This document shows, piece by piece, positions 176 to 20,769 of a stretch of DNA of 64,000 nt. Numbering within the stretch: the stretch's first letter is position 1; the number at the start of each line of letters is the position of its first letter. This DNA is from Polaromonas sp. JS666 (GTDB lineage Bacteria > Pseudomonadota > Gammaproteobacteria > Burkholderiales > Burkholderiaceae_C), in assembly GCF_000013865.1 (NCBI RefSeq), contig NC_007948.1, positions 4,641,001-4,705,000 on the forward strand, read 5' to 3'. The notes below the pieces were generated by a model, which did not search any database, had not been told where the DNA came from, and saw only the letters and a program-made list of their open reading frames with translations. A program made the position numbers and the translations under genes.

Positions 176-538
176 TCAACCCAACGAGGCAATGACGGTC
201 ACCTCAACCAAGAGGTTTGCCGCTGCGAGTCGCGCCTCTACCGTAGTTCTCGCCGGTGCGGTGCGGGAGACAATCCACGATTCCCAGACTGCATTCATCG
301 CGGCGAAGTCGTCTATGTTCTTCAAATAGATGGTCGCTGAAAGGATCTGCTCGCGGTTACTGCCCGCCTCGGTTAACAGCGCGTCGACACGCGACAAGGT
401 TTCATGCATCTGAGCGGTGATGTCAGCGTTGGCATTGGCGCTGCTAGTGGCGGTCTGACCGCATAGGTAGACCAAGCCGCCATGCTGCACGATCTTGCTC
501 ATGCGTGCGTTGGTGTGCTTGCGTTCGATAGTGCTCAT
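176..538 (-). CDS. RidA family imine/enamine deaminase (cassette A)
   Basis: This 120-residue RidA/YjgF/UK114-family protein is cytoplasmic and by family knowledge hydrolyses reactive imines/enamines to keto acids and ammonia. Family features seen are the N-terminal HTNARMSKIVQHGGLVYLCG block, the central LSRVDALLTEAGSNREQIL helix and the TIYLKNIDDFAAMNAVW stretch. The ATG overlaps the stop of the dehydrogenase alpha gene as ATGA (535-538), so translation is probably coupled. Being last in an amine-dehydrogenase operon suggests it clears the imine product. The C-terminal substrate Arg of classical RidA is present as part of ARTTVEARL. Paralogs are at 18571-18939 and 31616-31984. The exact substrate is unknown. 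Confidence 0.93.
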   Translation of the reverse strand: MSTIERKHTNARMSKIVQHGGLVYLCGQTATSSANANADITAQMHETLSRVDALLTEAGSNREQILSATIYLKNIDDFAAMNAVWESWIVSRTAPARTTVEARLAAANLLVEVTVIASLG

Positions 539-1956
539 GTTGTTTCCATGGGTTCAGAGTTTTCGATGGTTGCCGTGTCGGCCAGTGCAGCAATAGATGC
601 CAGCGGCACCGGCTTCAGCGGCGACCGAATGTGATAGGCGCCGACCTCGCTTGGCGGCCTACCCAACTCCGTTGAGAGAATTTGGGTCACTGTCAGGCCA
701 CATACTCGGCCTTGGCACGGTCCCATACCACAGCGGCTGAAAAATTTGGTCTGATTTGGTCCCTGGCAGCCCAGGCGAGCCATCTCGCGGACGCGGCCAG
801 CCGTGACTTCCTCACAGCGGCAAACAACAGTCTCATCGGTAGGATCGGAAAGCCATTCGGGGGGGCGATACAGCGCGTCCAGGAAGGGCCGGATGCGTAG
901 CTGGCGTTTCAGCGTGCCGCGTGCGGACGCGGCGCGCTGTTCGCACTCCGTCACGTCTAGCCGACCCAAGGCCTGCGCAGCACCCAGCGCCGCGAGTGTG
1001 CCATTGGGTTCTGCTGCCTGTGCGCCGGCAATCGCCGCACCGTCACCGGCAACGCGAAAGCCCGCGAGCGAAGTTTCACCCCATGCATTGACTTGTGGGC
1101 GCCAGGCCAGTTGAACAAGGTCCCAATCATGGTCAACCCTTAGCAGGCGGCTGAGTTGGGTGTTGGGAACCACCCCGTGATGCAATAACACGACATCCGC
1201 GTGCAGAAGATGGTCAATACGATCGGCCTTGAACGCCAGCGCCTGAACTCGCTCGCCGCCCTCGACGCGCAAGGACGTCGCCGCAGCGAACATCGGAACG
1301 CCTGCTCGACGAAGACGCCACAGCATGCGCAGGCCTTTTGCCAAGTAGGCGTGTGCTCCCAGCGCAGCCGGCAGGTGGCGCAGGGCACGCCAGCGATTGG
1401 TTGACGGCGAAGTTTCGACGATGCCTGCCAGCGAGACTCCTGCATCCAGCAATTGACAGGCTACCAGCAGCAGCAGAGGCCCGCTCCCGGCAAGCACGAC
1501 GCGGCCGGAGGGAACGGCACTGGCACTCTTCAAAGCGATCTGAGCAGCGCCGGCGTTCAGTACACCGGGAAGCGTCCAGCCGGGGATCGGGGAGGCGCGC
1601 TCCATGGCACCGGTGGCGGCGATCAGCTGCGGCGCACGCACCTGAAATGACTGACCATCCTGTTGAGCGGTTACGGTAAGGTCGCGCGCAACGTCCCACA
1701 CCATCGCACCAAAGCGCAGCTCAACACCCGAGCGGCCGAGCCGAGCCGCCAACCCTTCCCCGTGCCGGTAATCGGGCCCGAGCAAGGCGGCTACGGATGG
1801 AGGTACTGCGGTGATGTTGCGGTAAATCTGCCCGCCCGGGCGCAACTGCTCGTCCAGCAGCAGTGTCTTCATTCCGAGCGATGCCGCCGTTAGCGCGGCC
1901 GACATGCCAGCTGGACCAGCACCGATGATCACGAGGTCGTGTGTCGACGCGCTCAT
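535..1956 (-). CDS. Amine/imino-acid dehydrogenase alpha subunit, FAD plus BFD-type [2Fe-2S] (cassette A)
   Basis: The 473-residue pyridine-nucleotide-disulfide-reductase type subunit belongs to the HcnB / opine oxidase A / D-hydroxyproline dehydrogenase alpha family. The N-terminal dinucleotide motif is VIIGAGPAGMSAA and a second Rossmann region is at RVVLAGSGPLLLL. Near the C-terminus a BFD-like iron-sulfur motif reads CRCEEVTAGRVREMARLGC followed by CGMGPCQGRVCG. Start: the ATG at 1956 overlaps the stop of the gamma gene as ATGA, and the family sequence begins there, although the frame stays open further upstream. It would assemble with the beta and gamma subunits encoded just before it to oxidise an amino-acid C-N bond. 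It is closest to the alpha subunit of cassette C and more distant from that of cassette B. Confidence 0.9.
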   Translation of the reverse strand: MSASTHDLVIIGAGPAGMSAALTAASLGMKTLLLDEQLRPGGQIYRNITAVPPSVAALLGPDYRHGEGLAARLGRSGVELRFGAMVWDVARDLTVTAQQDGQSFQVRAPQLIAATGAMERASPIPGWTLPGVLNAGAAQIALKSASAVPSGRVVLAGSGPLLLLVACQLLDAGVSLAGIVETSPSTNRWRALRHLPAALGAHAYLAKGLRMLWRLRRAGVPMFAAATSLRVEGGERVQALAFKADRIDHLLHADVVLLHHGVVPNTQLSRLLRVDHDWDLVQLAWRPQVNAWGETSLAGFRVAGDGAAIAGAQAAEPNGTLAALGAAQALGRLDVTECEQRAASARGTLKRQLRIRPFLDALYRPPEWLSDPTDETVVCRCEEVTAGRVREMARLGCQGPNQTKFFSRCGMGPCQGRVCGLTVTQILSTELGRPPSEVGAYHIRSPLKPVPLASIAALADTATIENSEPMETT

Positions 1957-2264
1957 TTCCCATCTCCCGCGCGGCGCGCGCCGGTGGGCAACCCCACCTG
2001 CATGCCGGCATTCACCCTGACCATGCAGGATTGCACGTTCTGCGCACCATCTACTTCGACCAGGCATTCGAAGCACACCCCCATGAGGCACAACGGCGCG
2101 CGCGGCTGACCCGATACGGGCGTTCGCCGGAATGGGACAATGCCCGCGTTAAGTAGTGCGGCTGCAATCGTCTCGCCCTCGCGGGCCGATATGCGCCGCC
2201 CTTCGACAAATATATCGACCACGGGCCGCTGCTCGTTTGCGGGAAGTAGCATCGTCCTAAACAT
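1953..2264 (-). CDS. Amine dehydrogenase gamma subunit, small [2Fe-2S] protein (cassette A)
   Basis: A 103-residue protein of the small ferredoxin-like subunit family found in heterotrimeric opine, hydroxyproline and cyanide-forming dehydrogenases (HcnA-like). The cluster-binding cysteines are visible as CLMGVCFEC with a fourth Cys about 12 residues on (NVQSC). Start chosen at the ATG at 2264 (MFRTMLLPANEQ), which overlaps the 3' end of the beta gene by 8 bases. The longer open frame upstream lies inside beta. Its stop overlaps the alpha start by ATGA. It probably passes electrons between the FAD centres of alpha and beta. Equivalent genes are at 20413-20769 and 29813-30124. Confidence 0.9.
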   Translation of the reverse strand: MFRTMLLPANEQRPVVDIFVEGRRISAREGETIAAALLNAGIVPFRRTPVSGQPRAPLCLMGVCFECLVEVDGAQNVQSCMVRVNAGMQVGLPTGARRAGDGK

Positions 2265-3372: not shown

Positions 3373-4350
3373 TTAAGCAGCCACTGCATGACAGGCAACG
3401 GTGTGCCTTTCGGCAACCTCGAGCATCTTTGGCGTCTCTGAGCATTGCGGCATAGCGAGATGGCAACGCGGGGCAAAGCGGCACCCCGGGGGCGGATTGA
3501 CCGGTTTGGCAAGTTCGCCCATGATCTCAACCGGTTTCCGCCGGTAGGCAGGATCAGGCACTGGAACCGCCGCCACCAACGCGCGCGTATAAGGATGCCT
3601 TGGCGAATTCACGAGGTCGTGCGAGCTGGCTACTTCCACGAGCTGTCCGAGATACATCACCATCACCCGGTCGCAAAGATGAGTGAGGATTGAGAGGTCA
3701 TGCGACACGTAGAGGCATGAGAAATTGAGCCGGGTCGAGAGGTCGCGCAACAAGTCCATGACGCCCGCGCGAATTGATACGTCAAGCATGGAAACCGGCT
3801 CATCAGCAATCACCAATCTCGGTTCCGGAACCAGCGCGGACGCAATGCCGACGCGTTGACGCTCGCCGCCGCTCAACTGGTGTGGGTACCGCTGCGCGTA
3901 CCGCTCCGGGGGAAGCCCGACCAATGCCAACATTTCAGGAACACGACGCGCAATCTCGACCTCGTCCCACAGCTTGAGGGCGCGCGGCGCTTCGGCCACG
4001 ATGTCGAAGACCTTCAGCCGCGGGTTGAGCGAGTCGAAAGGATCCTGAAAGATCAGCTGAACTTGGGCGCGATAGCGAGCAAGCGCTGTCTTACTCAGAT
4101 GTGTGACGTCCTCTCCGTCAAACAGGATTTTCCCGCTCGTTGCATCGTCAAGCTTCGAGATGAGGTTGCAAGTGGTGGACTTGCCACAACCGGATTCGCC
4201 CACGATACCCAGTATCTCGCCTTCGCCAATAGAAAAGCTCACGTCTTCGACCGGTTTAATCCAGTTGGACGGTTGCCGACGCAGCACGGCGCCGAGATCG
4301 CGTCCGAGACTGAAGTGCTTTGTTAGGTGTTCTACGCTTAAGAGTGCCAT
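3373..4350 (-). CDS. ABC transporter ATPase, Dpp/OppF type
   Basis: A 325-residue oligopeptide-class ABC ATPase. Visible motifs are Walker [10 protein letters not shown], the signature LSGGERQRVGIASAL and Walker B RLVIADEPVSMLD, followed by a switch His region (YVSHDLSIL). The C-terminal extension PGCRFAPRCHLAMPQC is the cysteine-rich tail typical of DppD/DppF-like subunits. Its start overlaps the 3' end of the partner ATPase gene by 13 bases, so the two are translated together as the usual heterodimer. It energises uptake through the permeases at 5344-6279 and 7454-8431, with a family-5 binding protein supplying substrate. Confidence 0.95.
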   Translation of the reverse strand: MALLSVEHLTKHFSLGRDLGAVLRRQPSNWIKPVEDVSFSIGEGEILGIVGESGCGKSTTCNLISKLDDATSGKILFDGEDVTHLSKTALARYRAQVQLIFQDPFDSLNPRLKVFDIVAEAPRALKLWDEVEIARRVPEMLALVGLPPERYAQRYPHQLSGGERQRVGIASALVPEPRLVIADEPVSMLDVSIRAGVMDLLRDLSTRLNFSCLYVSHDLSILTHLCDRVMVMYLGQLVEVASSHDLVNSPRHPYTRALVAAVPVPDPAYRRKPVEIMGELAKPVNPPPGCRFAPRCHLAMPQCSETPKMLEVAERHTVACHAVAA

Positions 4351-5342
4351 GTCAACTTCTTCGCTGCGGCGGCGCGCATATATTCGATATCAGCCGTACG
4401 TATGCAGGCTGAAATGTGATCGGGTCCGACTTTGATGAGGGCTGGCCGCCGCGCATGACAAGTCTCAAGCGCGAACGGACACCGCTCGCCAAAGCCACAT
4501 CCTTTGGGAGGGTCCGACAAGTCTGGTGGCGACCCGGGTATGGAAATTAGCTCGCGCCCCAATTCAAGAATGCTGGGGAACGCATTCTTGAGGCCAAGGG
4601 TGTATGGATGCTGAGAAGCAGCGAACAGCGCCGTAGTCGGCGCACTTTCGACCATTCGTCCGGAATACATTACACCGACCCGATCTGCCGTTTCAGCAAT
4701 CACTCCGATGTCGTGCGTGATCAGCAGAATCGACGACTTGATCCGTTGGCGGATTTCCCGGATGCGGCCCAGAAGCCTTTCCTGAACCAGCACATCCAAA
4801 CCAGTGGTCGGCTCGTCCATCACCAGCAGCGCGGGCTCGAAGGCTAAGGCCATCGCGATCATCGCGCGTTGGCGCATGCCGCCCGAGAACTGGTGTGGGA
4901 ACCGGTCCATCAGCTCCGACTGAAGGCCGACGATGTCGAAAAGTTCGGCGACACGTTCGCGGGCCTTGCCCGCGGACGCTTTCGAGTGAGCGCGGATTGC
5001 CTCAACAATCTGTGCTCCCACGCGCTGCACCGGGTTGAGCGAGTTCTGCGCGCTCTGCGGCACCAACGCGATCTCGCGCATCAGAATCTCGCGCCGAAAG
5101 CGTGCCGGCGCCATCGTGAGCAAGTCGTGCTCCCGGAAGCGCAGCACATCCGCCTCGATCCGGGCGGTTGGCGGCAGCAGCCGCAACAAAGCCTTGACGA
5201 CCGTCGATTTTCCGCAACCGGACTCGCCGACCAGACCAAAGACTTCAGATTCGTTGATTGCCAGATCGAGTCCGTCGACGGCGCGCACATCTCCGTGGGC
5301 GCTCCGATAAGTCACTCGCAGATTGCGGGCTTCGAGCAACAT
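4338..5342 (-). CDS. ABC transporter ATPase, Dpp/OppD type
   Basis: A 334-residue ABC ATPase of the peptide/nickel class. Walker A is GESGCGKST, the signature is [15 protein letters not shown], Walker B is [12 protein letters not shown], and the oligopeptide-type C-terminal motif is [15 protein letters not shown]. Start chosen at the ATG at 5342 (MLLEARNL), one base after the TAA of the permease gene at 5344-5346. The open frame extends 11 codons further upstream, but that part lies inside the permease gene. It pairs with the ATPase at 3373-4350. The transported compound is probably a dipeptide-like or N-substituted amino acid, judged from the oxidase and enolase in the same operon. Confidence 0.95.
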
Positions 5343-5343
5343 G

Positions 5344-6279
5344 TTAGCGGTCCCCCAATCGTGGGTTAGCGACAACTTCGTAAGCGCGGCTCACGAACAC
5401 GAAGGCGCTGACGAGCAACACGATCGCTCCCGATGGCGCGATGAACCACCACCAGGCGCTGCGCGTGTAGCCTGATGCCCATAGGTCCTGCAGGATGCTG
5501 CCCCACGTTATCGCGTTGGGGTCACTGAAGCCCAGGAAGCTGGCAGAGGCTTCGGTCACAATCGCCCAGGCAATGTTGAACGAGGTGTAAAGCAGCAGCA
5601 GCGGCAGGATGTTAGGGGCAATGTGCCGATAGATGATGCGCATGTCGCTCGCGCCTCGTGCCTTTGCGAACGCTACAAATTGGCGCTGCTTGATCGCCAT
5701 CGTCTGGGCGCGGACTACGCGCGCGGATGTGCGCCAGACAATCACCACGATCGCCAGCATCACGAAGCCGATGGAACGCCCGAACAGAGAGATCAATACG
5801 ATGATGAAGGGAAGGAACGGCATGCCATAGACGATGTCGGTCAGCCGCATCAGCACGTTGTCCACGCGTCCGCCGTAGTAGCCGGAAATCAGTCCGATGT
5901 TGGCGCCGATGACAATGGAGATGAGCCCGCTGACGAGCCCGATGATCATGGTCGTGCGTGTCGCCACGATCATCTGTGAGAGGAGGTCACGCGCGAGATT
6001 GGTCGTGCCGAGCGGAAACTCCAAACTGGGACGCTGTAGCACGGCCATGCGTCCGTCGGCCATCCGTAGCGACTCGTAGGGATCGTGCGGGATCAGCCAC
6101 GGGCCGAACACTGCCACGAGCGCCGCGACAACGATCACCACAGCGCCGAAGCTACCCAGTCGGTCCGCTCGAATGACCCGCAAATTGTTGGCCAGCTCGC
6201 GGCGTAGCACGCCCGCCCAGCGCAGCGCCCGGCCTCCGGCAGGGGTCGCGGCGGGGGCCTTGAGAGATTTGCGGTTCAC
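5344..6279 (-). CDS. ABC transporter permease, DppC type
   Basis: A 311-residue inner-membrane permease of the binding-protein-dependent family. There is an N-terminal transmembrane segment (GAVVIVVAALVAVFGPWLI), then a LISIVIGANIGLISGYYGG region. The EAA-loop motif that contacts the ATPase reads EARG-like here (VAFAKARGASDMRIIYRHIAPN). Start is GTG at 6279, overlapping the TGA of the enolase gene (GTGA), so expression is probably coupled. The order permease B, enolase, permease C, ATPase D, ATPase F places a metabolic enzyme between the two permease genes, which is uncommon for Dpp-type operons. It forms the channel with 7454-8431. Confidence 0.93.
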   Translation of the reverse strand: MNRKSLKAPAATPAGGRALRWAGVLRRELANNLRVIRADRLGSFGAVVIVVAALVAVFGPWLIPHDPYESLRMADGRMAVLQRPSLEFPLGTTNLARDLLSQMIVATRTTMIIGLVSGLISIVIGANIGLISGYYGGRVDNVLMRLTDIVYGMPFLPFIIVLISLFGRSIGFVMLAIVVIVWRTSARVVRAQTMAIKQRQFVAFAKARGASDMRIIYRHIAPNILPLLLLYTSFNIAWAIVTEASASFLGFSDPNAITWGSILQDLWASGYTRSAWWWFIAPSGAIVLLVSAFVFVSRAYEVVANPRLGDR

Positions 6280-7457
6280 CGTTGTGCCCCAAGAATGAAG
6301 CTGTCCACTGCCAGGCGGCGAACGTGAGGCTCGTCAACCTGGATACCCAAGCCGGTAGTGCCGGGAAAGTGCACTACCCCATCGCGCACAAACGAAGAAA
6401 AATCGGTGGGATCCTCCGCGAGGCGCAAGGTGGACATGTAGGCGTGCCCAAAGTCAACAAGGTTTCCAATAGTCACGGCGTGCTGCAACGAAGCCGCCTG
6501 CGTGATACCGAACTCCAGCATCGAATTCATGTAGCAGCGAATCCCGAAGGCCTCTGCCACCGCGGCGATGCGTTGGGCACGCAGAGGCCCGCCGTTCTTG
6601 CTGCTCTTGATGCTGAAGACACTGGCGGCCCCGAGACTAGCGATGCGGGCGGCGTGCGCGAGTCCAACCACCGACTCGTCGGCTGATATCTGCAACGTGC
6701 TGCCACTCGCCAGCAGCGCCATACCCTCGAGGTCGTCCTTCACTACGGGCTGTTCGACGAACGCAAGTTGAGAGCCTCGGACCCCGTCCAGGAACTCTCG
6801 CGCTTCGTCACGGCTCCAGCCCTGGTTGGCGTCGGCGATGAGCGCTACACGTTTCCCGTAGCGGGCCTCGAGCGTAGCAACCCGCTGCACCTCATCACGC
6901 ACCGGTGACGTGCCCATCTTTAGCATGAAGCTCGAAAAACCTTGAGCCGCCCGCTCGTCGATCACGCGGATATCGTCCTCGGCGGTACCATTGTTGAGTG
7001 GCCACAGTACCGGAAGCGATTTGCGTAGCGTCCCACCCAGTAGCGTTGCAACAGGTACACGCAGCCGTTTTCCGAGGAGATCGAGCAGCGCCATGCTCAC
7101 CGCACCTTTGGCACAAAGGTGCTTGGGCAGCAGTGCGTCCAGTGCCGCATCAATGCGACCCGGTTGGGGATCAGCAGAAGCGAGCACCGCCGGCAACAGC
7201 ACGTCCTTAAGAGCCCTCGCGGCGTCACCGGACGACTCTCCAGTAAAGGCCTCGCTGGGATTGGCCTCTCCCCAACCCTCAACGCCGTCGGCGTCGGTCA
7301 ATTTGAGCAACACTGCGCGTGTTGTAGCCAACGTGCCGGTGGACAGCTTGTAGGGCGTAACGAACGCAGCTTCAATTTCGAACACCTCTGCTGCGATCAC
7401 CGGCGCCATCGCCACGGTACTGAGTCTTTCTGCCATTCTGTTTCTTTCGGTCGTCAT
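6276..7457 (-). CDS. Enolase-superfamily protein, muconate-cycloisomerase/amino-acid racemase subgroup
   Basis: A 393-residue mandelate racemase / muconate lactonizing enzyme family protein, expected in the cytoplasm with one Mg2+. Metal ligands are visible in order: ADANQGW (Asp), FVEQP (Glu) and SADES (Asp). The far-side catalytic Lys is in FSIKSSKNGG. The near-side motif is FMLKMG, whereas the subgroup normally has KxK, so the first Lys is Met and only the second is kept. Members of this subgroup include dipeptide epimerases, N-succinylamino-acid racemases and betaine epimerases. Here it sits between two Dpp-type permease genes and overlaps both (ATGA at 7454-7457, GTGA at 6276-6279). A racemase/epimerase feeding the dehydrogenase is the likely role. 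The precise reaction cannot be read. Confidence 0.85.
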   Translation of the reverse strand: MTTERNRMAERLSTVAMAPVIAAEVFEIEAAFVTPYKLSTGTLATTRAVLLKLTDADGVEGWGEANPSEAFTGESSGDAARALKDVLLPAVLASADPQPGRIDAALDALLPKHLCAKGAVSMALLDLLGKRLRVPVATLLGGTLRKSLPVLWPLNNGTAEDDIRVIDERAAQGFSSFMLKMGTSPVRDEVQRVATLEARYGKRVALIADANQGWSRDEAREFLDGVRGSQLAFVEQPVVKDDLEGMALLASGSTLQISADESVVGLAHAARIASLGAASVFSIKSSKNGGPLRAQRIAAVAEAFGIRCYMNSMLEFGITQAASLQHAVTIGNLVDFGHAYMSTLRLAEDPTDFSSFVRDGVVHFPGTTGLGIQVDEPHVRRLAVDSFILGAQR

Positions 7458-8431
7458 GTGGTTCCAAGCCGGATGCGTGGGTCGAGGAGGCTATAGGAGA
7501 GATCGGTGATGAAGTTCAAACCAATCACTACTGCTGCCATTAGGAAGAATGCCGCCTGAGCGACCGGGTAGTCGTGTTGCATTGCGGCGTCGACCATGGC
7601 CTTGCCCATCCCCGGCCACGAGAAGACGGTCTCGATCACGATCTGTCCGCCGATTGCAAAGCCCAGGATCAGCGAAGAAACCGTGACCACCGCCAACAGA
7701 GCGTTGCGCGCAGCGTGGCGAAACAGCACACGGACCGGACTCAGCCCCTTCGCACGGGCGAATTCGACGAAATCCGAACCCAGCACCTCGAGCATCGAAT
7801 CGCGCATCACCAGCATCGGCGTGGACAAATAGAGCGCGGTGATCGTGAGCGTTGGCAGGACCAGGTGTTCTAGAAAATCCTTCGAAGTGATGAGCGCCCA
7901 GGTGTTACCTGGGTCGGCGCCAGGCGTGAACATCCCTCCTGACGGGAAAATCTCGAACTGATAGCTCAGCCCCATAAGCAGTAGGATCCCGATCACGAAG
8001 GGCGGTGAGGCCTGAAAAACGAGCCCCAGAACGGTGGCGCCGTTATCGAGGGGGCCGCCGCGACGTGCCGCCATAAAAATGCCAAGCACAACGCCTAGAG
8101 AAATCGCCAAGACAAGTCCGGTGCTCATCAACAGCAGCGTATTGACCAGCCAGCCCCCTAGCAAACTAGCGACCGGCTGGCCGGTGGTGAAGGACCGGCC
8201 CCACTCAAGCGTTGCCGTGTTCTTCAGGTATATGATGAATTGTTGCCACACCGGAAGATCCAAACCAAACGCCTGCTTGAGGCGGTCCTGAGCTGCCGCA
8301 TCGAGGGCGGGGCTGATGATCTGCGCAGTTGGATCACCCGGCATCATCCGGAACAGCACGAAGAGAATCACCGCCACGCCCAATAGCGTGAGCAATGCCG
8401 ACAAGAGACGGCGCAGGATATACGCAGTCAT
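7454..8431 (-). CDS. ABC transporter permease, DppB type
   Basis: A 325-residue inner-membrane permease. The classical DppB N-terminus MTAYILRRLLSALLTLLGVA is followed by the family LFRMMPGDP motif. There are further membrane spans, and the EAA loop reads FVEFARAKGLSPVRVLFRHAARN. It ends in the DLSYSLLDPRIRLG tail typical of the family. It lies 64 bases downstream of the binding protein gene and overlaps the enolase gene by ATGA. A degenerate copy of its 5' end is found at about 10895-10972, in the same position relative to the second binding protein. Confidence 0.95.
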   Translation of the reverse strand: MTAYILRRLLSALLTLLGVAVILFVLFRMMPGDPTAQIISPALDAAAQDRLKQAFGLDLPVWQQFIIYLKNTATLEWGRSFTTGQPVASLLGGWLVNTLLLMSTGLVLAISLGVVLGIFMAARRGGPLDNGATVLGLVFQASPPFVIGILLLMGLSYQFEIFPSGGMFTPGADPGNTWALITSKDFLEHLVLPTLTITALYLSTPMLVMRDSMLEVLGSDFVEFARAKGLSPVRVLFRHAARNALLAVVTVSSLILGFAIGGQIVIETVFSWPGMGKAMVDAAMQHDYPVAQAAFFLMAAVVIGLNFITDLSYSLLDPRIRLGTT

Positions 8432-8495
8432 CGCGAGCCTCCCTGATGGCCGCGGTTTCGAGTAGGGGCGTCATCCGCCCACAATGCACCGTAGA

Positions 8496-10121
8496 TCATT
8501 TGCCGCGGGGAGAGAGCAATTTGCCTTGCGCGTCCCATCCGTAACCGGCCTTCGCAAGAATGTCGCGCGCCTTCTTCACGTCTTCAGCCGGAACCTTGAC
8601 AGCCGGGTTGTGCCAAAACGTGCTGATGGGCGAAATAATTGATGCGCCGGGATCGGCGTACCCGAGCAGGATCAGCTCCGAGATCATCTTGCGCGGCATC
8701 ACATGGTTGAGCGCCTGGCGGAAGGCGGGATCGTCGAAAGGCTTGATCTTGTTGTTGTACGCAAGGTGATAGAGGCCGTGGCTGGGATAGCCCTTGGCCA
8801 CTACGTTCTTCACGTTCTTTATACGATCGACAAGGGCTGGCGACAAGATGTAGCGTGAGCGGTCGCATTCCCCCTTCTCGATGGCGGCGGCCAACGCGTC
8901 ATGGCTGCCGTAAGTAATGCGGATGATGCCTGCGCACTTGGGTGGGTTGAAGTGCTCGCGGAACGCGGTGACCTTGAGTTCCGAACCGCGCCGCCAGTAG
9001 TCGAACTTGAACGGTCCGCTACCGACCGGCTTGTCGTTGGGGAATTTGAGCGGATCGTCAATGCCGACCTTCTCCGGGATGCCTTCCCAAATGTGTTTGG
9101 GGAGAAGAAACATCGTCGCCATCACGTTGGAGACAAAGGGAGCCGATGGATTTTCGAGTCGGATGCGCACCGTATTGGGGCTCGGGAGCTCCACCGCGAC
9201 GACATTATTGAGCGCGGCAAGGAAAAATGGCGCCTTCCACTTCTTGTGATAGTCGAAGGTGAACTTGACATCCTCGGCCGTCACTGGCTTACCGTCATGC
9301 CAGCGCATACCCGAGCGGATCGTCAGATCGATGGTTTTGTCATCCACCAACTTCATTCCGGAGGCTGCCCAAGGTACAGGTTTGCCGTCGGGCCCAAGGC
9401 GGAAAAGTCGGTCGTAGATCATGGAAAGCTCCATGAATTCCATGGAGTCATTGACCGCAACTGGATTCAGATGCTTGACGTCCGCATTCGAACCGGTGCG
9501 CGAGAATCCGTCGCCCGCCACTTCCATGTTGACGTCAGACCAAAAGCCGCCGATTCCCTCGCCGAGCTGCGGCACCAGGCCCTTGAGCTTGTCCGAACGA
9601 TGAGCCATCGTCATCTGCGTATAGGCCAGCACGGTTCCAGGCTGGTCCTGGAAGATGGTTTCCTGCGCTTCGAGCACCGGCTTCCTACGGTCGTCGATCT
9701 TCATCAAGCGGCTCTGCACGGTTGCCAGCGCGTCTACACGGTCGTTCTTGTAGCCCGCCCAGTTGAAGCCGCCGCGCTTATGCTCTGTGGAGTGGTGAAT
9801 GCTGCGAATGAAGAAGTCGGGGTCGATGCGGATGGCCGTACCCGGAAGAAAGACCAGGAACATCTCGAAGTCATGCTCGTTGATCACTTTCGTGATGCCC
9901 TGGTTGTAGTCGATGGGATTGGCTTCAACCTCCCACCCGAGCGACTTGCAGGACTGTGCGACAACCCGGGCAATCTCCGGGCGGGCCGGGTCGAACTGCG
10001 CCGTAGCTGTCAGAATTGAGCGCTTCGCAACTGGCGCCCCGGCTTGTTGCGCTTGCCCGATGCCAGCGGCGGCGGTTGCAGTAAGAGCTGCTGCGCCTTT
10101 GACGAAATCACGACGATCCAT
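8496..10121 (-). CDS. Family-5 solute-binding protein with circularly permuted domain order, copy 1
   Basis: A 541-residue exported binding protein for the Dpp-type importer. The N-terminus MDRRDFVKGAAALTATAAAG is a twin-arginine type signal. After it, residues about 35-185 look like the normal C-terminal third of SBP_bac_5 proteins (RPEIARVVAQSCKSLGWEV, then DPDFF, then GYKNDRVDAL and RKPVLEAQETIFQDQP). Residues about 212-290 look like the normal N-terminus (LNPVAVNDS, IYDRLFRLGPDGKPVP, MRWHDGKPVTAEDVKFTF). The middle follows (GSGPFKF, LAYNNKIKPFDDPAFRQAL). The protein stops at ARDILAKAGYGWDAQGKLL, where ordinary family members would continue into the segment now at the N-terminus. The same order occurs in the paralog at 11035-12660, so it is not an assembly slip. 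Gene context supports function as the receptor for cassette A. Confidence 0.9.
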   Translation of the reverse strand: MDRRDFVKGAAALTATAAAGIGQAQQAGAPVAKRSILTATAQFDPARPEIARVVAQSCKSLGWEVEANPIDYNQGITKVINEHDFEMFLVFLPGTAIRIDPDFFIRSIHHSTEHKRGGFNWAGYKNDRVDALATVQSRLMKIDDRRKPVLEAQETIFQDQPGTVLAYTQMTMAHRSDKLKGLVPQLGEGIGGFWSDVNMEVAGDGFSRTGSNADVKHLNPVAVNDSMEFMELSMIYDRLFRLGPDGKPVPWAASGMKLVDDKTIDLTIRSGMRWHDGKPVTAEDVKFTFDYHKKWKAPFFLAALNNVVAVELPSPNTVRIRLENPSAPFVSNVMATMFLLPKHIWEGIPEKVGIDDPLKFPNDKPVGSGPFKFDYWRRGSELKVTAFREHFNPPKCAGIIRITYGSHDALAAAIEKGECDRSRYILSPALVDRIKNVKNVVAKGYPSHGLYHLAYNNKIKPFDDPAFRQALNHVMPRKMISELILLGYADPGASIISPISTFWHNPAVKVPAEDVKKARDILAKAGYGWDAQGKLLSPRGK

Positions 10122-10223
10122 TCTTGTCTCCTTAAGTTTCCCAGGCCACCAAGCCCGATATGTGACAAGTCTATGAATGCAGACTTCACATGTCCATGTT
10201 GCAAGGAGTAACGTTATCTAGCC

Positions 10224-10238
10224 ATAACTGATGGTTAT
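10224..10238. promoter_or_regulatory. Candidate LysR operator in the divergent region of binding protein copy 1
   Basis: ATAAC-N5-GTTAT inverted repeat of the T-N11-A type, between the divergent binding protein gene (start 10121) and the LysR pseudogene (start 10269). The surrounding bases (GTTATC, then CCATAAC, then TGGTTA) are shared with the same position upstream of the intact pair at 12760-12774. That conservation in otherwise diverged spacer DNA supports a regulator site. Confidence 0.55.
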
Positions 10239-10268
10239 AGCGTAGACATGGCTCTAGGAGGTGGGCCG

Positions 10269-10527
10269 ATGAAGTCCGAACTCATTGAGGTCTCCAAGGC
10301 CAAGATCGAATCCGGCACAGTTATGGCAGCTACTCACTCTCTCAAGCTGTCTCAACCGGTGATGGCAAAGCAACGCGCGCAACTGCAAAGCGAGCTTTAT
10401 CTGACGCTATTCAAACAGCGAGATCGGCGCCTGGCGCCGACAGCAGAAGCGCGAGCCCCCATGGGCTGATGACCCACGCGTGGCGTGGTGTGATCGAGTT
10501 AGAAGAGAATGGGAGAGACAGATCGTG
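10269..10527 (+). pseudogene. Broken LysR-type regulator gene (N-terminal remnant)
   Basis: The frame from the ATG at 10269 encodes a LysR helix-turn-helix half (MKSELIEVSKAKIESGTV, then HSLKLSQPVMAKQRAQLQSE and RLAPTAEARAP). It matches the first 70 residues of the intact regulator at 12807-13775. The frame hits a stop at 10467-10469. In another frame the homology goes on for about 20 codons (HAWRGVIELEENGRDR) before it ends near 10527, so there is a frameshift followed by a truncation. It is divergent from the binding protein gene in the same way as the intact pair. No effector domain is left. It is a dead duplicate of the regulator at 12807. Confidence 0.85.
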
Positions 10528-10717
10528 AAGTGCATCGACGACTTGAATGGGCAAGGGCACCCAAATGTGGCTTTGCCATGGGCGCGCCCAGTTTCTTACG
10601 CTTTATGCGAGTGGCAGGCACTGCCCATGGAAGCCGCGTCGGGATCGAGCGCCTCCCACATTGCGTGATACAGCTCTTTTATTAAATCAGGGCAATTTCA
10701 GACCGATTCGGCATGCG
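10528..10717. other. Unassigned spacer between LysR and integrase remnants
   Basis: I see no convincing gene, RNA or repeat in this 190-base stretch. It separates the truncated LysR copy from the integrase-like remnant and is probably decayed mobile or duplicated DNA. Confidence 0.4.
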
Positions 10718-10880
10718 TCATTCGCCTAGTTCGTGACCGACCGCCAGCGGCCGGCGAGTTTCACGCCCTGCTCCCACACACCCTTGGGCCAGTCTCAGGG
10801 TACATACCGAGCGAGAACCGCTTTTCTTTGCCGGCGATCTGTACGTGGCATGCCGCCACTGTCCTCCTACCTGGGACAGT
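10718..10880 (-). pseudogene. Remnant of a P4-type tyrosine integrase (N-terminal arm-binding region)
   Basis: Minus-strand translation in three linked frames gives GGQWRHATYR, then IAGKEKRFSLGMYPET, then CVGAGRETRRPLAVGHELGE. This is the order and spacing of the N-terminal DUF4102 region of P4-like prophage and island integrases (W-YR, GKEKR-LG-YPE, then RE-AR-LLA-G-P-E). At least two frameshifts break it, and no catalytic domain is present nearby. It lies between the two duplicated binding protein units, so it may mark the recombination that built or broke the duplication. Confidence 0.6.
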
Positions 10881-10894
10881 TCCGGATACAGCCA

Positions 10895-10972
10895 TTTGCG
10901 AAAAGATGCCGACGCGATGAAAACGCCGGGCACAACGTCGAGGAAGAGGCGACGCGCGACGTACTCTGTCAT
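10895..10972 (-). pseudogene. 5' stub of a second DppB-type permease gene
   Basis: From the ATG at 10972 the minus strand reads MTEYVARRLFLDVVPGVFI, aligned with the start of the intact permease (MTAYILRRLLSALLTLLGVA) at 8431. The distance to the upstream binding protein gene is almost the same in both copies (62 versus 64 bases). Homology is lost after about 25 codons, where the integrase-like remnant begins. The duplicated unit therefore once included the start of the permease gene. Confidence 0.65.
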
Positions 10973-11034
10973 TGAACGCGCCGTGATATGAAGGCGTTCG
11001 AATGGAGGAGTCAGCAGCCGCAGTGGGGCTCAGG

Positions 11035-12660
11035 TCATTTGCCGCGGGGAGAGAGCAATTTGCCTTGCGCGTCCCATCCGTAACCGGCCTTCGCAAGAAT
11101 GTCGCGCGCCTTCTTCACGTCTTCGGCCGGAACCTTGACAGCCGGGTTGTGCCAGAACGCGTTGATGGGCGAGATGATTGATGCACCAGGATCAGCGTAT
11201 CCAAGCAGGATCAGTTCCGAGATCATCTTGCGCGGCATCACATGGTTGAGCGCCTGGCGAAAGACGGGATCGTCGAAAGGCTTGATCTTGTTGTTGTACG
11301 CCAGGTGATAGAGGCCGTGGCTGGGATAGCCCTTGGCTACTACGTTCTTCACCGCTTTCAGGCGATTGACGAGGGCTGGCGACACGATATAGCGTGAGCG
11401 GTCGCATTCCCCCTTCTCGATGGCAGCGGCCAAAGCGTCATGGCTGCCATAGACGACGCGGATGATGCCAGCGCACTTGGGCGGTTTAAAGTGCTCGCGG
11501 AACGCGGTGACCTTGAGTTCCGAGCCACGCCGCCAGTAGTCGAACTTGAACGGTCCGCTACCGACCGGCTTGTCGTTGGGGAATTTGAGCGGATCGTCAA
11601 TGCCGACCTTCTCCGGGATGCCTTCCCAAATGTGTTTGGGGAGAAGAAACATCGTCGCCATCACGTTGGAGACAAAGGGAGCCGATGGATTTTCGAGTCG
11701 GATGCGCACCGTATTGGGGCTCGGGAGCTCCACCGCGACGACATTATTGAGCGCGGCAAGGAAAAATGGCGCCTTCCACTTCTTGTGATAGTCGAAGGTG
11801 AACATGACGTCCTCGGCCGTCACTGGCTTGCCGTCATGCCAGCGCATATCCGAGCGGATCGTCAGCTCGATCGTTCTGTCGTTGATCAACTTCATTCCGG
11901 AGGCTGCCCACGGTACAGGTTTGCCATCCGGTCCGAGGCGAAAGAGTCGGTCATAGATCATGGAAAGCTCCATGAACTCACTCGTGTCGGTAACGGCGAG
12001 CGGATTCAGATGCTTCACATCCGCGTTTGAGCCCGTACGCGAGTAGCCATCGCCCGCTACTTCCATGTTGACGTCAGACCAAAAGCCGCCGATGCCCTCG
12101 CCGAGCTGCGGCACCAGGCCCTTGAGCTTGTCCGAACGATGAGCCATCGTCATCTGCGTATAGGCCAGCACGGTTCCAGGCTGGTCCTGGAAGATGACGT
12201 CCTGCGCTTCGAAGACTGGCTTCCAGCGATCGTTGAAGTTCATCATGCGGCTCTGCACGGCCGCAAGAGCATCCACCCGATCGTTCTTGTAGCCCGCCCA
12301 GTTGAAGCCGCCGCGCTTATGCTCTGTGGAGTGGTGAACGCTGCGAATGAAGAAGTCGGGGTCGATGCGGATGGCCGTACCCGGAAGAAAGACCAGGAAC
12401 ATCTCGAAGTCATGCTCGTTGATCACTTTCGTGATGCCCTGGTTGTAGTCGATGGGATTGGCTTCAACCTCCCACCCGAGCGACTTGCAGGACTGTGCGA
12501 CGACCCGGGCAATCTCCGGGCGGGCCGGGTCGAACTGCGCGGTAGCTGTCAGAATTGAGCGCTTCGCAACTGGCGCCCCGGCTTGTTGCGCTTGCCCGAT
12601 GCCGGCGGCGGCGGTTGCAGTAAGAGCTGCTGCGCCTTTGACGAAATCACGACGATCCAT
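11035..12660 (-). CDS. Family-5 solute-binding protein with circularly permuted domain order, copy 2
   Basis: A 541-residue paralog of the protein at 8496-10121 with the same twin-arginine signal and the same permuted order of family blocks. The C-terminal lobe comes first (about 35-185), the LNP...FRLGPDGKPVP...MRWHDGKPVTAEDV N-terminal lobe comes second, and the end is at LAKAGYGWDAQGKLL. Differences are clustered (for example MMNFNDRWKPVFEAQDVIF versus LMKIDDRRKPVLEAQETIF), while other stretches of hundreds of bases look identical to copy 1. No intact permease follows; only a stub is left at 10972. Copy 2 probably shares the cassette A importer with copy 1. The intact LysR regulator at 12807 is divergent from it. 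Confidence 0.9.
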   Translation of the reverse strand: MDRRDFVKGAAALTATAAAGIGQAQQAGAPVAKRSILTATAQFDPARPEIARVVAQSCKSLGWEVEANPIDYNQGITKVINEHDFEMFLVFLPGTAIRIDPDFFIRSVHHSTEHKRGGFNWAGYKNDRVDALAAVQSRMMNFNDRWKPVFEAQDVIFQDQPGTVLAYTQMTMAHRSDKLKGLVPQLGEGIGGFWSDVNMEVAGDGYSRTGSNADVKHLNPLAVTDTSEFMELSMIYDRLFRLGPDGKPVPWAASGMKLINDRTIELTIRSDMRWHDGKPVTAEDVMFTFDYHKKWKAPFFLAALNNVVAVELPSPNTVRIRLENPSAPFVSNVMATMFLLPKHIWEGIPEKVGIDDPLKFPNDKPVGSGPFKFDYWRRGSELKVTAFREHFKPPKCAGIIRVVYGSHDALAAAIEKGECDRSRYIVSPALVNRLKAVKNVVAKGYPSHGLYHLAYNNKIKPFDDPVFRQALNHVMPRKMISELILLGYADPGASIISPINAFWHNPAVKVPAEDVKKARDILAKAGYGWDAQGKLLSPRGK

Positions 12661-12759
12661 TCTTGCTCCTCAGTTGATCAGGCCCAAGCCCGTTATGCGA
12701 CAAGTCTATGAACGAAGATTCGGGGAAGTCCACGCCAAGCGTGGCTACGTTATCCACCC

Positions 12760-12774
12760 ATAACTTTTGGTTAC
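12760..12774. promoter_or_regulatory. Candidate LysR operator upstream of binding protein copy 2 and lysR
   Basis: ATAAC-N5-GTTAC imperfect inverted repeat of the LysR T-N11-A type, placed in the 146-base divergent spacer between the binding protein gene (start 12660) and the regulator gene (start 12807). The same motif with one base change occurs at 10224-10238 in front of copy 1. Confidence 0.55.
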
Positions 12775-12806
12775 TATTTGAGCCAGAACACGAAAAGGCA
12801 GTAGCT

Positions 12807-13775
12807 ATGAAATTTCGACTTATTGAGATCTTCAGGGCAATGATGGAATGCGGCACAGTTACAGCAGCAGCTCACTCGCTCAAGATCTCTCAGCCGGCGA
12901 TGACAAAGCAACTCACCCAGCTGCAAAGCGAGCTTGACTTAGTACTCTTCGAACAGCGCGGTGGACGTCTGGTGCCGACAGCAGAAGCGAGAGCCCTCAT
13001 TGGTTCGATGGATCGGGCATGGCGCAGCGTCATCGAGTTGAAGGAAGTTGCCAGAGATGTGCGCGACATGCGACGCGGCCGACTCACAGTAGTCGCTTCC
13101 CCGAGCTTCGCTCAGACGCTGATGGCCGATTTCGTCACTCAGTTCTCTCGTGAATCGAGCAAGGTCACAATCGCGTTGCACGCGCAATCTTCACCTCGTG
13201 TGATTGACTGGACAGCTGACGGACAGGCAGATGTCGGAATATCAATGATCCTTGCGCCCCGTCCCGGCGTGCACGTGGAGCCGCTGGGAAGTCTTGTTGG
13301 AGTTTGCGCGCTGCCAGTTGGCCACGCACTCGCTGCAAATAAGGTCATACGTGCGGAGGACCTCCATGGTCAGCGATTCATCTCATTAGCCGAGATTGAT
13401 GATGCGCGCTCCCGGGTCGAAGCTGCATTCGATGGGCAAGCGATAGAACGCGATATCGCTTTGACAACACCACAATCCGCAGTGGCATTAGCGCTTGTCA
13501 CGCATGGCGCCGGCGTGGCGGTCATTGACGAGGCCACAGCGACGATGGCTGACCTGACTCGGGTGGCCATCCGCCCATTCTTGCCTACGGTGAGCTTTGA
13601 AGTCTATATGTACCATCCCGCGAATAGGGTGCCTTCACAGTTGCATGAGCGGTTTGTGCGAAAGTTTCGGACATGGTTTAAAGGCCGCCGTGCGATCGCG
13701 AGAGCCACCATCACCACATCGTTGTCGCAAATATCTGCATCCCGCGCGGACTCGGCTCGTGCACGCGGCAAATAA
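12807..13775 (+). CDS. LysR-type transcriptional regulator
   Basis: A 322-residue LysR-family regulator. The winged helix-turn-helix is at about residues 2-60 (FRLIEIFRAMMECGTVTAAA, HSLKISQPAMTKQLTQLQSE). The periplasmic-binding-type effector domain follows (RGRLTVVASPSFAQTLMADF, ending in the AVALALVTHGAGVAVIDEAT region). Start chosen at the ATG at 12807, which aligns with the LysR consensus, although the frame is open 33 codons upstream through the operator. It is divergent from the family-5 binding protein gene, so it is the likely regulator of that gene and perhaps of cassette A. A decayed duplicate is at 10269. Confidence 0.93.
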   Translation: MKFRLIEIFRAMMECGTVTAAAHSLKISQPAMTKQLTQLQSELDLVLFEQRGGRLVPTAEARALIGSMDRAWRSVIELKEVARDVRDMRRGRLTVVASPSFAQTLMADFVTQFSRESSKVTIALHAQSSPRVIDWTADGQADVGISMILAPRPGVHVEPLGSLVGVCALPVGHALAANKVIRAEDLHGQRFISLAEIDDARSRVEAAFDGQAIERDIALTTPQSAVALALVTHGAGVAVIDEATATMADLTRVAIRPFLPTVSFEVYMYHPANRVPSQLHERFVRKFRTWFKGRRAIARATITTSLSQISASRADSARARGK

Positions 13776-16419: not shown

Positions 16420-17331
16420 TCATTTTCCTTGTAGTGCTTCGCACTCTTCGCGTGCGATCTGACGTAATACTTCTGAAAATTTCGCGACCAGGCGGTTGGC
16501 CGGTCGACCTTTCGGAATGATCAGAATGCCTTCATACGGCAGTGCGGGATCAAAAGGCCGTGTCACGACAGGCGCCGACCGGTAATCCTGTACGGCAAGC
16601 GGATTGACGATACTTATGCCCATGCCCAGCCCCACGAGCGACCAGATGATGGAGCTGTAGGACGTTTCGATATTTATTATTCGCTTCACCCCCGCTTGAT
16701 CGAAAATTCGGTCGACGCTTTTACGCAGTTCGTCAGGCTTGGCTGACGAGATGAAGGTCTCGCCTTCAAGATCCATCGGAGTGAGACGCTTCTTCTCCGC
16801 CAGTCGGTGGTTTTCCGGCATCAGGCAAACGCCATCTATCCGGTATAAAACGTCCGGCTCAGTTGAAATGTCCTGGCGTGACAGCTGCGAAACGATGCCC
16901 AAATCACAGAAATGCGAATCCACCCACTGCGAAATGACCGACGAGTGGCCCATGTGAATGGAGATGCCGACTTCGGGATGATCTTGGGCGAACCTCTTTA
17001 TTGCGCGCGGCAGAAGTCCGAATGCAATCGTGGACACCGCGGCAATTCTCAGTTCGCCGGTGCCAAAACGCCTAATTTTGTCTGCAGTTTCATCTAGCCT
17101 CTCCAAACCCAGGAAGCTGCGTTGAACCTCGGTGAAAAAAGTGAGCCCCTCCTCCGTTGGGGTCAACTTGCCTGGGGATCTTTCGAAAAGGAGGAGGCCG
17201 ATGGCTTTTTCAAGCTGAGATATCAACCGGCTGACATTGGGCTGCGAAGTGTGAAGAACGCGCGCCGCTGCCGTGGTGGAGCCGGAGAGCACAACCGCAC
17301 GAAAGGCTTCAACCTGCGAGAGGTTCATCAT
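16420..17331 (-). CDS. LysR-type transcriptional regulator (cassette B side)
   Basis: A 303-residue LysR regulator with the helix-turn-helix at residues about 5-65 (VEAFRAVVLSGSTTAAARVL, TSQPNVSRLISQLEKAIGL) and an effector domain starting at GELRIAAVST. A ribosome site AAGGAG lies 8 bases before the ATG. It sits between the enolase gene and the PotD-like binding protein gene on the same strand, and probably controls one or both. The very 3' end of this gene is also present as a stub at 26037-26090 upstream of the paralogous binding protein, showing that the lysR end and the binding protein were duplicated as one piece. Confidence 0.92.
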   Translation of the reverse strand: MMNLSQVEAFRAVVLSGSTTAAARVLHTSQPNVSRLISQLEKAIGLLLFERSPGKLTPTEEGLTFFTEVQRSFLGLERLDETADKIRRFGTGELRIAAVSTIAFGLLPRAIKRFAQDHPEVGISIHMGHSSVISQWVDSHFCDLGIVSQLSRQDISTEPDVLYRIDGVCLMPENHRLAEKKRLTPMDLEGETFISSAKPDELRKSVDRIFDQAGVKRIINIETSYSSIIWSLVGLGMGISIVNPLAVQDYRSAPVVTRPFDPALPYEGILIIPKGRPANRLVAKFSEVLRQIAREECEALQGK

Positions 17332-17442: not shown

Positions 17443-18570
17443 TCAGGGCCGGGCGGACCCGCTGGTAGTTGCCAATCGCTTCAGGGCCTTTTCATCTACC
17501 TCAACGCCCAAACCAGGCCGCGTGCCGACATTAAAGCCGTCACCATCCAGCAGCAAGTTGACCGACATGAATTCATCTCTAACAGCCGGCACGCCGTTGG
17601 CATAGGTTTCGAGCATCACCGCGTTGGGAATAGCCGCGCACACCTGCACGCTCGCAGCTGTGGCGATGGGGCCTACCGGGTTATGGGGCGCAACACCTAT
17701 TCCATAAATCTCAGCCAACACGGCAATTTTTCGCATCTCGGTGATGCCACCAACACGAATAACGGAAGGCTGCACAATTCCCACTGCCTGGCGTTCAATC
17801 ACCGCGCGAAACTCCTGTCTTCCCGCGAGCCGCTCACCTGTCGCAAGACGAACGGGAGACTGCCGCGCCAAGCCAGAGAGCACCTCGAGGTTCTCAGCCA
17901 TCACCGGTTCTTCGACAAAAAGCAGGTTATATGGAGCCACCTGCATACAAAACTGCGCCGCGGCCGCTCGGTCAAGCCGTCGCCATAAGTCCACCATCAG
18001 ATCGATGTTGGGGCCAACTACCGCACGCACAGCCGCAACCTCGTCGACGGCTCGTTGAACTTCAATAGGCCTCACGGCCCAGTTCTGCTCATGCTGCGGA
18101 AGGAAGCGGAAGGGATACCACTTCAATGCCGTTGCCCCTTCTGAGACAGCAATCCGAGCGAGGTCGACAAGGTCCGCGCCCTTAGCGATGTCGCGCCACC
18201 ATTGATTCAGATATGCACGCACGCGCATCCGGTAAGGCCCACCTAAAAGCTGATGAACTGGTAGACCGGCTGATTTTCCGGCAATGTCCCACAGTGCCTG
18301 ATCTATAGCGCTGAGGGCGGCCAGATCGGCTGGCCCCCCGCGCCAGAAGATCCGGTCGTGAAGATCTGCCCAAATTCGCTCGACACCAATGGCACTGCGG
18401 CCTTTGAGGTATTGGGCAGCAGCGTCGATGCCTGCGCACACCTGGCCGGATCGGTAATCGAGGGTGGCCTCGCCGACACCGGTGATGCCGTCGTCTGTTT
18501 CGACAACGACCATCGTGAAGTCCTTGAAGGGCGTGGGAACCACATACCAACGGATATCTGCGATCTTCAT
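17443..18570 (-). CDS. Enolase-superfamily protein, mandelate-racemase/sugar-acid-dehydratase-like, with altered catalytic dyad
   Basis: A 375-residue enolase-superfamily member. Metal ligands are in LMVDLWRR (Asp), LFVEEP (Glu) and ATGERL (Glu). The general-base region reads ALKWYPF and the catalytic His region VAPHNPVGP. The His normally pairs with an Asp in a QPD motif. Here the motif is QPSVIRVGGIT, so the Asp is a Ser, checked in the DNA near 17760-17790. A standard dehydratase or racemase mechanism may therefore be altered. It directly follows the RidA gene (RidA stop 18571, this ATG 18570). In context it may epimerise or otherwise prepare the substrate of the cassette B dehydrogenase. 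Confidence 0.85.
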   Translation of the reverse strand: MKIADIRWYVVPTPFKDFTMVVVETDDGITGVGEATLDYRSGQVCAGIDAAAQYLKGRSAIGVERIWADLHDRIFWRGGPADLAALSAIDQALWDIAGKSAGLPVHQLLGGPYRMRVRAYLNQWWRDIAKGADLVDLARIAVSEGATALKWYPFRFLPQHEQNWAVRPIEVQRAVDEVAAVRAVVGPNIDLMVDLWRRLDRAAAAQFCMQVAPYNLLFVEEPVMAENLEVLSGLARQSPVRLATGERLAGRQEFRAVIERQAVGIVQPSVIRVGGITEMRKIAVLAEIYGIGVAPHNPVGPIATAASVQVCAAIPNAVMLETYANGVPAVRDEFMSVNLLLDGDGFNVGTRPGLGVEVDEKALKRLATTSGSARP

Positions 18571-20423: not shown

Positions 20424-20769
20424 GGTTTTCTCCTTCCGTGGAAATTTCCAGGGCAGACGCACCTTGTTGCCGTCTGACAATCATTCCCTCACGAACAGGG
20501 ATCAGACAGGCTTGGCGGCTGGGCATGCCGTCCACTTCGACCAGGCAGTCGAAACACACGCCCATCATGCAATAGGCTGCTCGCGGAGCCGAGGTGACTG
20601 GAGTAGTGCGGAACGGCCCTACCCCGTTTAGCAGCAAGGCTGCGGCAATACTGACACCCGCGGGAGCGGTAATCGTGCGGTCATCGAATCGCAGCGTGAC
20701 CGGGTCTGAAGGGGAATCCCCGTTCGATGTAAATAGCGCAGGGCAAGGAGAAGTGGTTTTAGTGTGCAT
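20413..20769 (-). CDS. Amine dehydrogenase gamma subunit, small [2Fe-2S] protein (cassette B)
   Basis: A 118-residue ferredoxin-like subunit. The cluster cysteines are seen as CMMGVCFDCLVEVDG plus a downstream Cys (RQACL). It is about 15 residues longer than the A and C versions because of an N-terminal extension (MHTKTTSPCPALF). Start chosen at the ATG at 20769, which overlaps the 3' end of the beta gene. Its own end overlaps the alpha start. Confidence 0.88.
   Translation of the reverse strand: MHTKTTSPCPALFTSNGDSPSDPVTLRFDDRTITAPAGVSIAAALLLNGVGPFRTTPVTSAPRAAYCMMGVCFDCLVEVDGMPSRQACLIPVREGMIVRRQQGASALEISTEGENHGR

Follow-up and report, generated by a model that had tools for sequence, protein, structure and literature searches.

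The 64,000-nucleotide stretch of DNA analysed here, referred to as the window (Polaromonas sp. JS666, contig NC_007948.1, positions 4,641,001 to 4,705,000), carries on its reverse strand two tandem genes for 541-residue receptors of SBP_bac_5 (PF00496), the family-5 or cluster C solute-binding proteins, in which the segment that closes ordinary members comes first and the segment that opens them comes last. Few receptor families of bacterial importers are as large or as well studied as family 5. A preliminary description of this DNA had read both proteins as circularly permuted, and matches to PF00496 and AppA, a profile of the moved segment and hhalign all agree with that reading. The two genes and their parts are laid out as follows, in window positions.

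8496..10121, reverse strand: probable permuted family-5 solute-binding protein, copy 1; 541 residues; heads an importer operon
11035..12660, reverse strand: probable permuted family-5 solute-binding protein, copy 2; 541 residues; 94% identical to copy 1
10038..10121, reverse strand: twin-arginine signal, copy 1 residues 1-28; TIGR01409 above its cut-off, PF10518 just below
9507..10016, reverse strand: copy 1 residues 36-205, closing segment of ordinary members, here first; PDB, Pfam, hhalign and profile matches
9486..9527, reverse strand: copy 1 residues 199-212, putative joint between the former C-terminus and the former N-terminus of the mature protein; exact boundaries approximate
8499..9488, reverse strand: copy 1 residues 212-541, opening segment of ordinary members, here last; Pfam, hhalign and VIA matches
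12046..12555, reverse strand: copy 2, closing segment of ordinary members, here first; Pfam segment match and alignment
11038..12027, reverse strand: copy 2, opening segment of ordinary members, here last; Pfam and custom profile matches

The twin-arginine signals of copies 1 and 2 score 22.4 and 22.5 bits with TIGR01409 (cut-off 16.7), and 22.6 and 22.7 bits with PF10518 (cut-off 22.7). Both genes belong to a tandem duplication (8493-10505 and 11032-13043; 2020 aligned positions, 89% identical) whose unit comprises a receptor gene together with the 5' portion of the divergent LysR-like gene, the inner LysR copy being an apparent truncated remnant. The ratio of nonsynonymous to synonymous substitution rates (dN/dS), computed with a Nei-Gojobori script, is 0.13 between the copies over their whole length; the moved half taken separately gives 0.17 and the rest 0.12. 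Against a Paralcaligenes gene each copy gives 0.14. Because dN/dS is low in each half, both halves of the receptor are maintained under purifying selection.

Segment order and predicted fold

All eight motifs on which the preliminary description had based its block order were located in copy 1 in the sequence given there, those of closing type at residues 47, 100, 123 and 151 and those of opening type from residue 218 onward (218, 240, 274 and 522). Six of them are identical to the letter at the same places in copy 2, and the other two are variants. Both copies share the order, as had been proposed, and copy 1 does head an operon of permeases and ATPases.

Whole-protein scores against PF00496 reach 212.3 and 209 bits (gathering cut-off 32.4), with two stretches per copy. 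The best stretch aligns residues 247-534 with positions 1-285 of the 368-position profile, and the N-terminal segment alone falls on positions 290-364 (17.5 bits, E 0.0023). Because this segment-alone match is weak, further tests were made with PDB sequences, a profile and hhalign. On AppA (1xoc), query residues 255-532 align with chain residues 72-348 and query residues 35-174 with chain residues 361-495, the latter at E 1.1e-5. A 15-row profile of the moved segment matches 34 PDB sequences at E<=1e-3 (best E 2.3e-12), all in their C-terminal part at residue 335 or later (359-488 in E. coli DppA); by name these are peptide, nickel, heme, oligosaccharide and family-5 binding proteins, plus one 'putative uncharacterized' entry. 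Aligned by hhalign to 20 ordinary members, the moved segment covers columns 414-562 of 572 (probability 99.5, E 5e-23) and the second part of the receptor columns 92-401 (E 8e-65). The half-by-half comparison with the SBP_bac_5 profile thus returns the swapped order, and one continuous match in canonical N-to-C order was found in neither copy by Pfam, PDB or a custom hidden Markov model (HMM). Since the two stretches stand in swapped order, the proteins are classed as a permuted SBP_bac_5 variant.

The halves had also been said to fit end to end. At the joint formed by the chain ends, PF00496 position 285 is followed by position 290; by the custom HMM over 241 proteins with this order, the median step is 11 positions (range -35 to 163), and the earliest end of an opening-segment match is position 230. 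The other joint was placed from residues 196-212, the 17 residues between both hhalign matches, and from an ordinary receptor (L056) that ends at the position matching the junction; by the HMM, a median of 37 residues (12-60) is unmatched there. Judged from these alignments, the segments appear complete, and neither joint shows large losses or overlaps.

Within the same genome, 13 further family-5 places are matched by query P0001, each from residue 203 onward only; of the six retrieved, five are in ordinary order and one has no match to the moved half. For one receptor of this genome (L006), BLASTP aligned query residues 107-489, which is taken for an over-extension because the tblastn alignment to that gene spans query residues 213-491. 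The PDB matches listed (the best 60 of 93, and another 24) include no permuted chain, their best stretches being in ordinary order.

An AlphaFold2 model of the whole chain has a predicted local distance difference test score (pLDDT) of 92.6, and Foldseek returns template modelling (TM) scores of 0.40-0.52 by query length among 50 rows. The usual two-lobed receptor fold, which in cluster C has an extra domain, is a reasonable prediction from this model; the permutation cut would lie inside lobe II, and the old termini in lobe I would be joined. Three observations count against a permuted two-lobed receptor: as a single sequence the N-terminal segment scores 17.5 bits with Pfam, short of the family threshold; when this moved segment is folded by itself, from the 15-row alignment, the pLDDT is 56.8, so that its fold is supported within the whole chain only; and the VIA alignments listed begin at model residue 175 or later and run to 541, most of them covering 198-541. 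The low segment score and the low-confidence fold of the segment alone would also suit a truncated family-5 protein carrying an unrelated N-terminal domain, a reading that the preliminary description had named among those that would refute permutation. Yet about 170 N-terminal residues match the family's own C-terminal part, at E 2e-12 among PDB sequences and 5e-23 by hhalign, and residues 31-200 are confident in the whole-chain model (10-residue means of 89-98). A separate domain was rejected on the PDB-profile and hhalign matches, and we give it hardly any credence.

The swapped order is real and beyond chance, and on these alignments permutation is nearly certain. Very probably, then, both genes encode a naturally permuted, two-lobed family-5 (cluster C) binding protein that feeds the co-encoded importer. 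The alignments show the closing segment of ordinary members after the export signal, followed by a junction of some 10-20 residues and the opening segment, and the chain stops about where ordinary members enter the moved segment. The protein would fold into a two-lobed receptor with its termini in lobe II rather than lobe I, bind its ligand between the lobes and pass this on to the Dpp/Opp-type permeases and ATPases encoded alongside.

Distribution and origin of the permuted order

Homologs with the same order, a check the preliminary description had called for, were sought among 5.8 billion proteins, with about 8000 candidates scored per search. At E<=1e-10, P0001 gave 1434 matches and a second query, a distant Clostridial member, gave 932; because the 120 best matches were listed per search, the order is known for those listed. 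Among 244 such proteins, an HMM of 23 ordinary members finds 241 permuted and none ordinary; the other three (P0051, P0089, P0170) are fragments of 367-419 residues. With permuted-half profiles added, a wider set of 322 sequences contains 265 permuted, 56 ordinary and 1 unclassified, the 265 being the 244 proteins plus 21 open reading frames (ORFs) from loci, 7 of these repeats, with 249 distinct opening segments. The opening-half profile gives permuted sequences at least 278 bits and ordinary ones at most 172.

Among the named bacterial sources are Polaromonas, Paralcaligenes, Desulfacinum, Roseibium, Aliihoeflea and Clostridiaceae, and among the haloarchaeal ones Halorarum, Halomarina, Halalkalicoccus and Natronococcus. 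The permuted order is therefore not a one-genome quirk, being present in several bacterial phyla and in haloarchaea. The tandem duplication with its apparent truncated LysR remnant could make one think of an assembly artefact or a decaying gene. Against this stand the occurrence of the order in 241 of the 244 proteins, which come from many sources, its presence in other genomes with conserved operons, and the low dN/dS; the idea was rejected on these grounds and has next to no probability.

Counted by genome, the permuted receptor is uncommon: the cut-offs used brought up none beyond the centre genomes among 298 other Pseudomonadota or 273 others of the window's class, nor beyond the centre genome among 195 others of the class of a Clostridial genome (G299), where four further matches (L079-L082) have ordinary order. 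In each of seven genomes reached through permuted loci, a single match scores 486-593 bits and a further 4-18 do not exceed 160 bits; 23 of the low-scoring matches were retrieved (L056-L078), and all are ordinary. A minority of entries carry source names; these are generic ('ABC transporter substrate-binding protein', for example) and do not mention the order, which points to a blind spot of annotation. One permuted member of 632 residues (P0174) carries a precomputed PF06808 match besides SBP_bac_5. A Thermoplasmata archaeon (L025:7001-11641) has a 1547-residue open frame, read stop to stop, in which some 1000 residues of other sequence precede a family-5 region in ordinary order.

Trees were built for each half from 57 permuted rows (251 reduced to 106, then to 57) and 30 ordinary rows (chosen from 56 by score and coverage). 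Both place the permuted rows on one side of a single branch, with a Shimodaira-Hasegawa-like approximate likelihood ratio test (SH-aLRT) value of 99. A single origin is probable, in which an ordinary gene was tandemly duplicated and fused and its outer parts were then lost; the permuted order would later have spread both vertically and horizontally. Some points count against so simple a history. Since permuted queries were used to collect the permuted proteins, their grouping as a single clade is partly built in, and a second origin elsewhere in the family may exist. In the opening-half tree the nearest ordinary sequences, L056 and L081, are long branches that meet, leaving the sister group ambiguous. 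Finally, no half-way form with a doubled segment was seen among the 322 sequences, which come from the best 120 matches per search and are of limited length.

The ambiguous nearest relative of the opening half also bears on whether the halves ever belonged to one ancestral protein, or whether the closing part of one family-5 receptor was joined in front of the opening part of another. Such a chimera, which the authors of the TpMglB-2 work consider for their own protein in the text available for PMC4990184, would fit the different rankings of some ordinary proteins: L079 tops the opening-half ranking at 171.5 bits yet reaches 33.5 against the moved half, and L025 takes second place for the moved half at 56.5 bits yet reaches 51.6 against the opening half. 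Others, however, are near the top with both (171.3 and 53.5 bits for L080; 158.5 and 60.1 for L082), the halves meet at one common cut point, and both half trees contain the identical single split. We consider a chimera improbable and permutation of a single ancestral receptor the better reading.

Export, operon and ligand

A twin-arginine motif is present in 95 of 120 complete permuted proteins (P0001-P0122) versus 3 of 56 ordinary ORFs, as counted by regular expressions and with the ordinary ORFs read stop to stop. In the five haloarchaeal permuted members listed, a twin-arginine motif is combined with a lipobox; the two Clostridial members listed carry a lipobox. The lipobox calls of P0056 and P0184 look doubtful. 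Regardless of the export route, the anchor or signal is now on the other lobe. The genes around the receptors are as follows.

7454..8431, reverse strand: Dpp/Opp-type permease, B subunit; best match Opp2B at 245.5 bits, below its cut-off of 350
6276..7457, reverse strand: enolase-superfamily enzyme, muconate-cycloisomerase-like; by family search, nearest solved relatives muconate cycloisomerases
5344..6279, reverse strand: Dpp/Opp-type permease, C subunit; by family search
4338..5375, reverse strand: importer ATPase, OppD/DppD-like; by family search
3376..4389, reverse strand: second importer ATPase; stop-to-stop frame, recognised by eye from a Walker A motif and a close match to the L009 gene
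2260..3372, reverse strand: flavin adenine dinucleotide (FAD)-dependent amine/glycine-oxidase-like enzyme (DAO); by family search
538..2067, reverse strand: oxidoreductase of the FAD/nicotinamide adenine dinucleotide (NAD) type with a sarcosine-oxidase A3 domain; by family search
12708..13775, forward strand: divergent LysR-type-like regulator gene; recognised by eye

Copy 1 is followed downstream by the B permease, the enolase-type enzyme, the C permease, both ATPases and finally the pair of FAD enzymes, the last of which (538..2067) we take to be HcnB-like. An ORF resembling it lies at 19047-20480 on the reverse strand; close by are a further LysR-like ORF at 16420-17331 and an ORF of enolase-superfamily type at 17443-18570, all three recognised by eye.

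Fifteen related loci were compared (L009-L023), several of them cut by contig ends and one (L021) containing the second receptor segment only, so that its order is not visible. A B permease match is next to the receptor gene in all 15; an enolase-type gene is present in 13, a DAO-type oxidase in 6 and a second FAD enzyme in 5. Octopine-dehydrogenase-type genes are found in 4 (L011, L012, L013 and L015); the L012 gene matches PF02317, and those of the other three match it by BLAST. Three of these loci (L011, L012, L015) have two such genes each, within the operon and next to it; the additional gene shares 34-36% identity with the L012 gene.

Both octopine dehydrogenases and opine-oxidase-like FAD enzymes act on secondary amines. 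Because the operons carry enolase-type and FAD amine-oxidase-like or octopine-dehydrogenase-type enzymes, we tentatively guess, from the neighbouring genes, that the ligand might be an opine-like N-substituted amino acid, and hold this for possible rather than probable. Speaking against it, octopine-dehydrogenase-type genes were not found in the window, two Clostridial loci have no enolase-type gene, and the neighbours in Clostridial locus L023 are creatininase and gamma-glutamyltransferase instead. Because of these L023 neighbours, ligands probably differ between branches.

A wider proposal would make the permuted proteins an ancient single-origin class of cluster C receptors ('Cluster Cc') in two domains of life, whose signal or lipid anchor on lobe II instead of lobe I alters tether and docking geometry, and in which one proteobacterial branch is specialised for opine-like amino-acid derivatives. 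Taken as a whole, we regard this as speculative and on balance unlikely.

Comparison with known solute-binding proteins

Ordinary cluster C receptors (DppA, AppA, NikZ and NikA; PF00496) are homologous to both halves of the proteins described here, have the same kind of importer partners and are alike in the predicted fold of the major part; the cluster C trait of a receptor encoded with Dpp/Opp-type permeases and ATPases is present. Unlike them, the window's receptors have swapped halves, new termini inside lobe II and joined old termini. Scores with the DppA equivalog model are 56 and 58 bits against a cut-off of 1005, although the permuted order would itself lower the score. In DppA, Asp436 and Arg383 hold the ends of the dipeptide, according to the text available for PMC8519434. 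Asp436 aligns with Thr95 in a column that is non-acidic in 15 of 15 rows and lies beside a two-residue gap of unsure place, which argues mildly against a DppA-like dipeptide receptor, a candidate we judge unlikely. Arg383 is just outside the alignment, and its pairing with Ala41 is presumed by extrapolation.

Chain order within family 5 is usually assumed, and a widespread permutant would offer a ready test of how far receptor function depends on chain order, folding path and the place of membrane tethering; the natural termini of permuted receptors could also guide sensor design.

The preliminary description knew of no permuted SBP_bac_5 receptor, and among the titles and abstract starts of open-licence PMC literature no permuted family-5, DppA or oligopeptide-binding receptor was found; PMC2588589 and PMC12311786 share search terms only and are irrelevant to permuted family-5 receptors. 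Permutation of solute-binding proteins is already known in other clusters, and the family-5 case has apparently been overlooked. TpMglB-2 (Tp0684; 'Type Ic / Cluster Bc'), as presented in the available text of PMC4990184, is a natural permutant shared with relatives and a reported sugar binder. It resembles the proteins described here as a natural circular permutation of an ATP-binding cassette (ABC) importer binding protein that is common to a group of relatives, and differs in being a cluster B (Type I) sugar receptor of another fold class, which suggests an independent event; Pfam at E<=10 gives only SBP_bac_5 and the twin-arginine signal for the window's receptors, with no cluster B match, no direct comparison with TpMglB-2 having been made. 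Glycine-betaine- and molybdate-binding proteins are likewise related by circular permutation, recognised by structure comparison (CPSARST) at less than 24% identity (PMC2395249, from its available text); that pair shares with the Polaromonas receptors a permutation among solute-binding proteins, and unlike them lies outside family 5.

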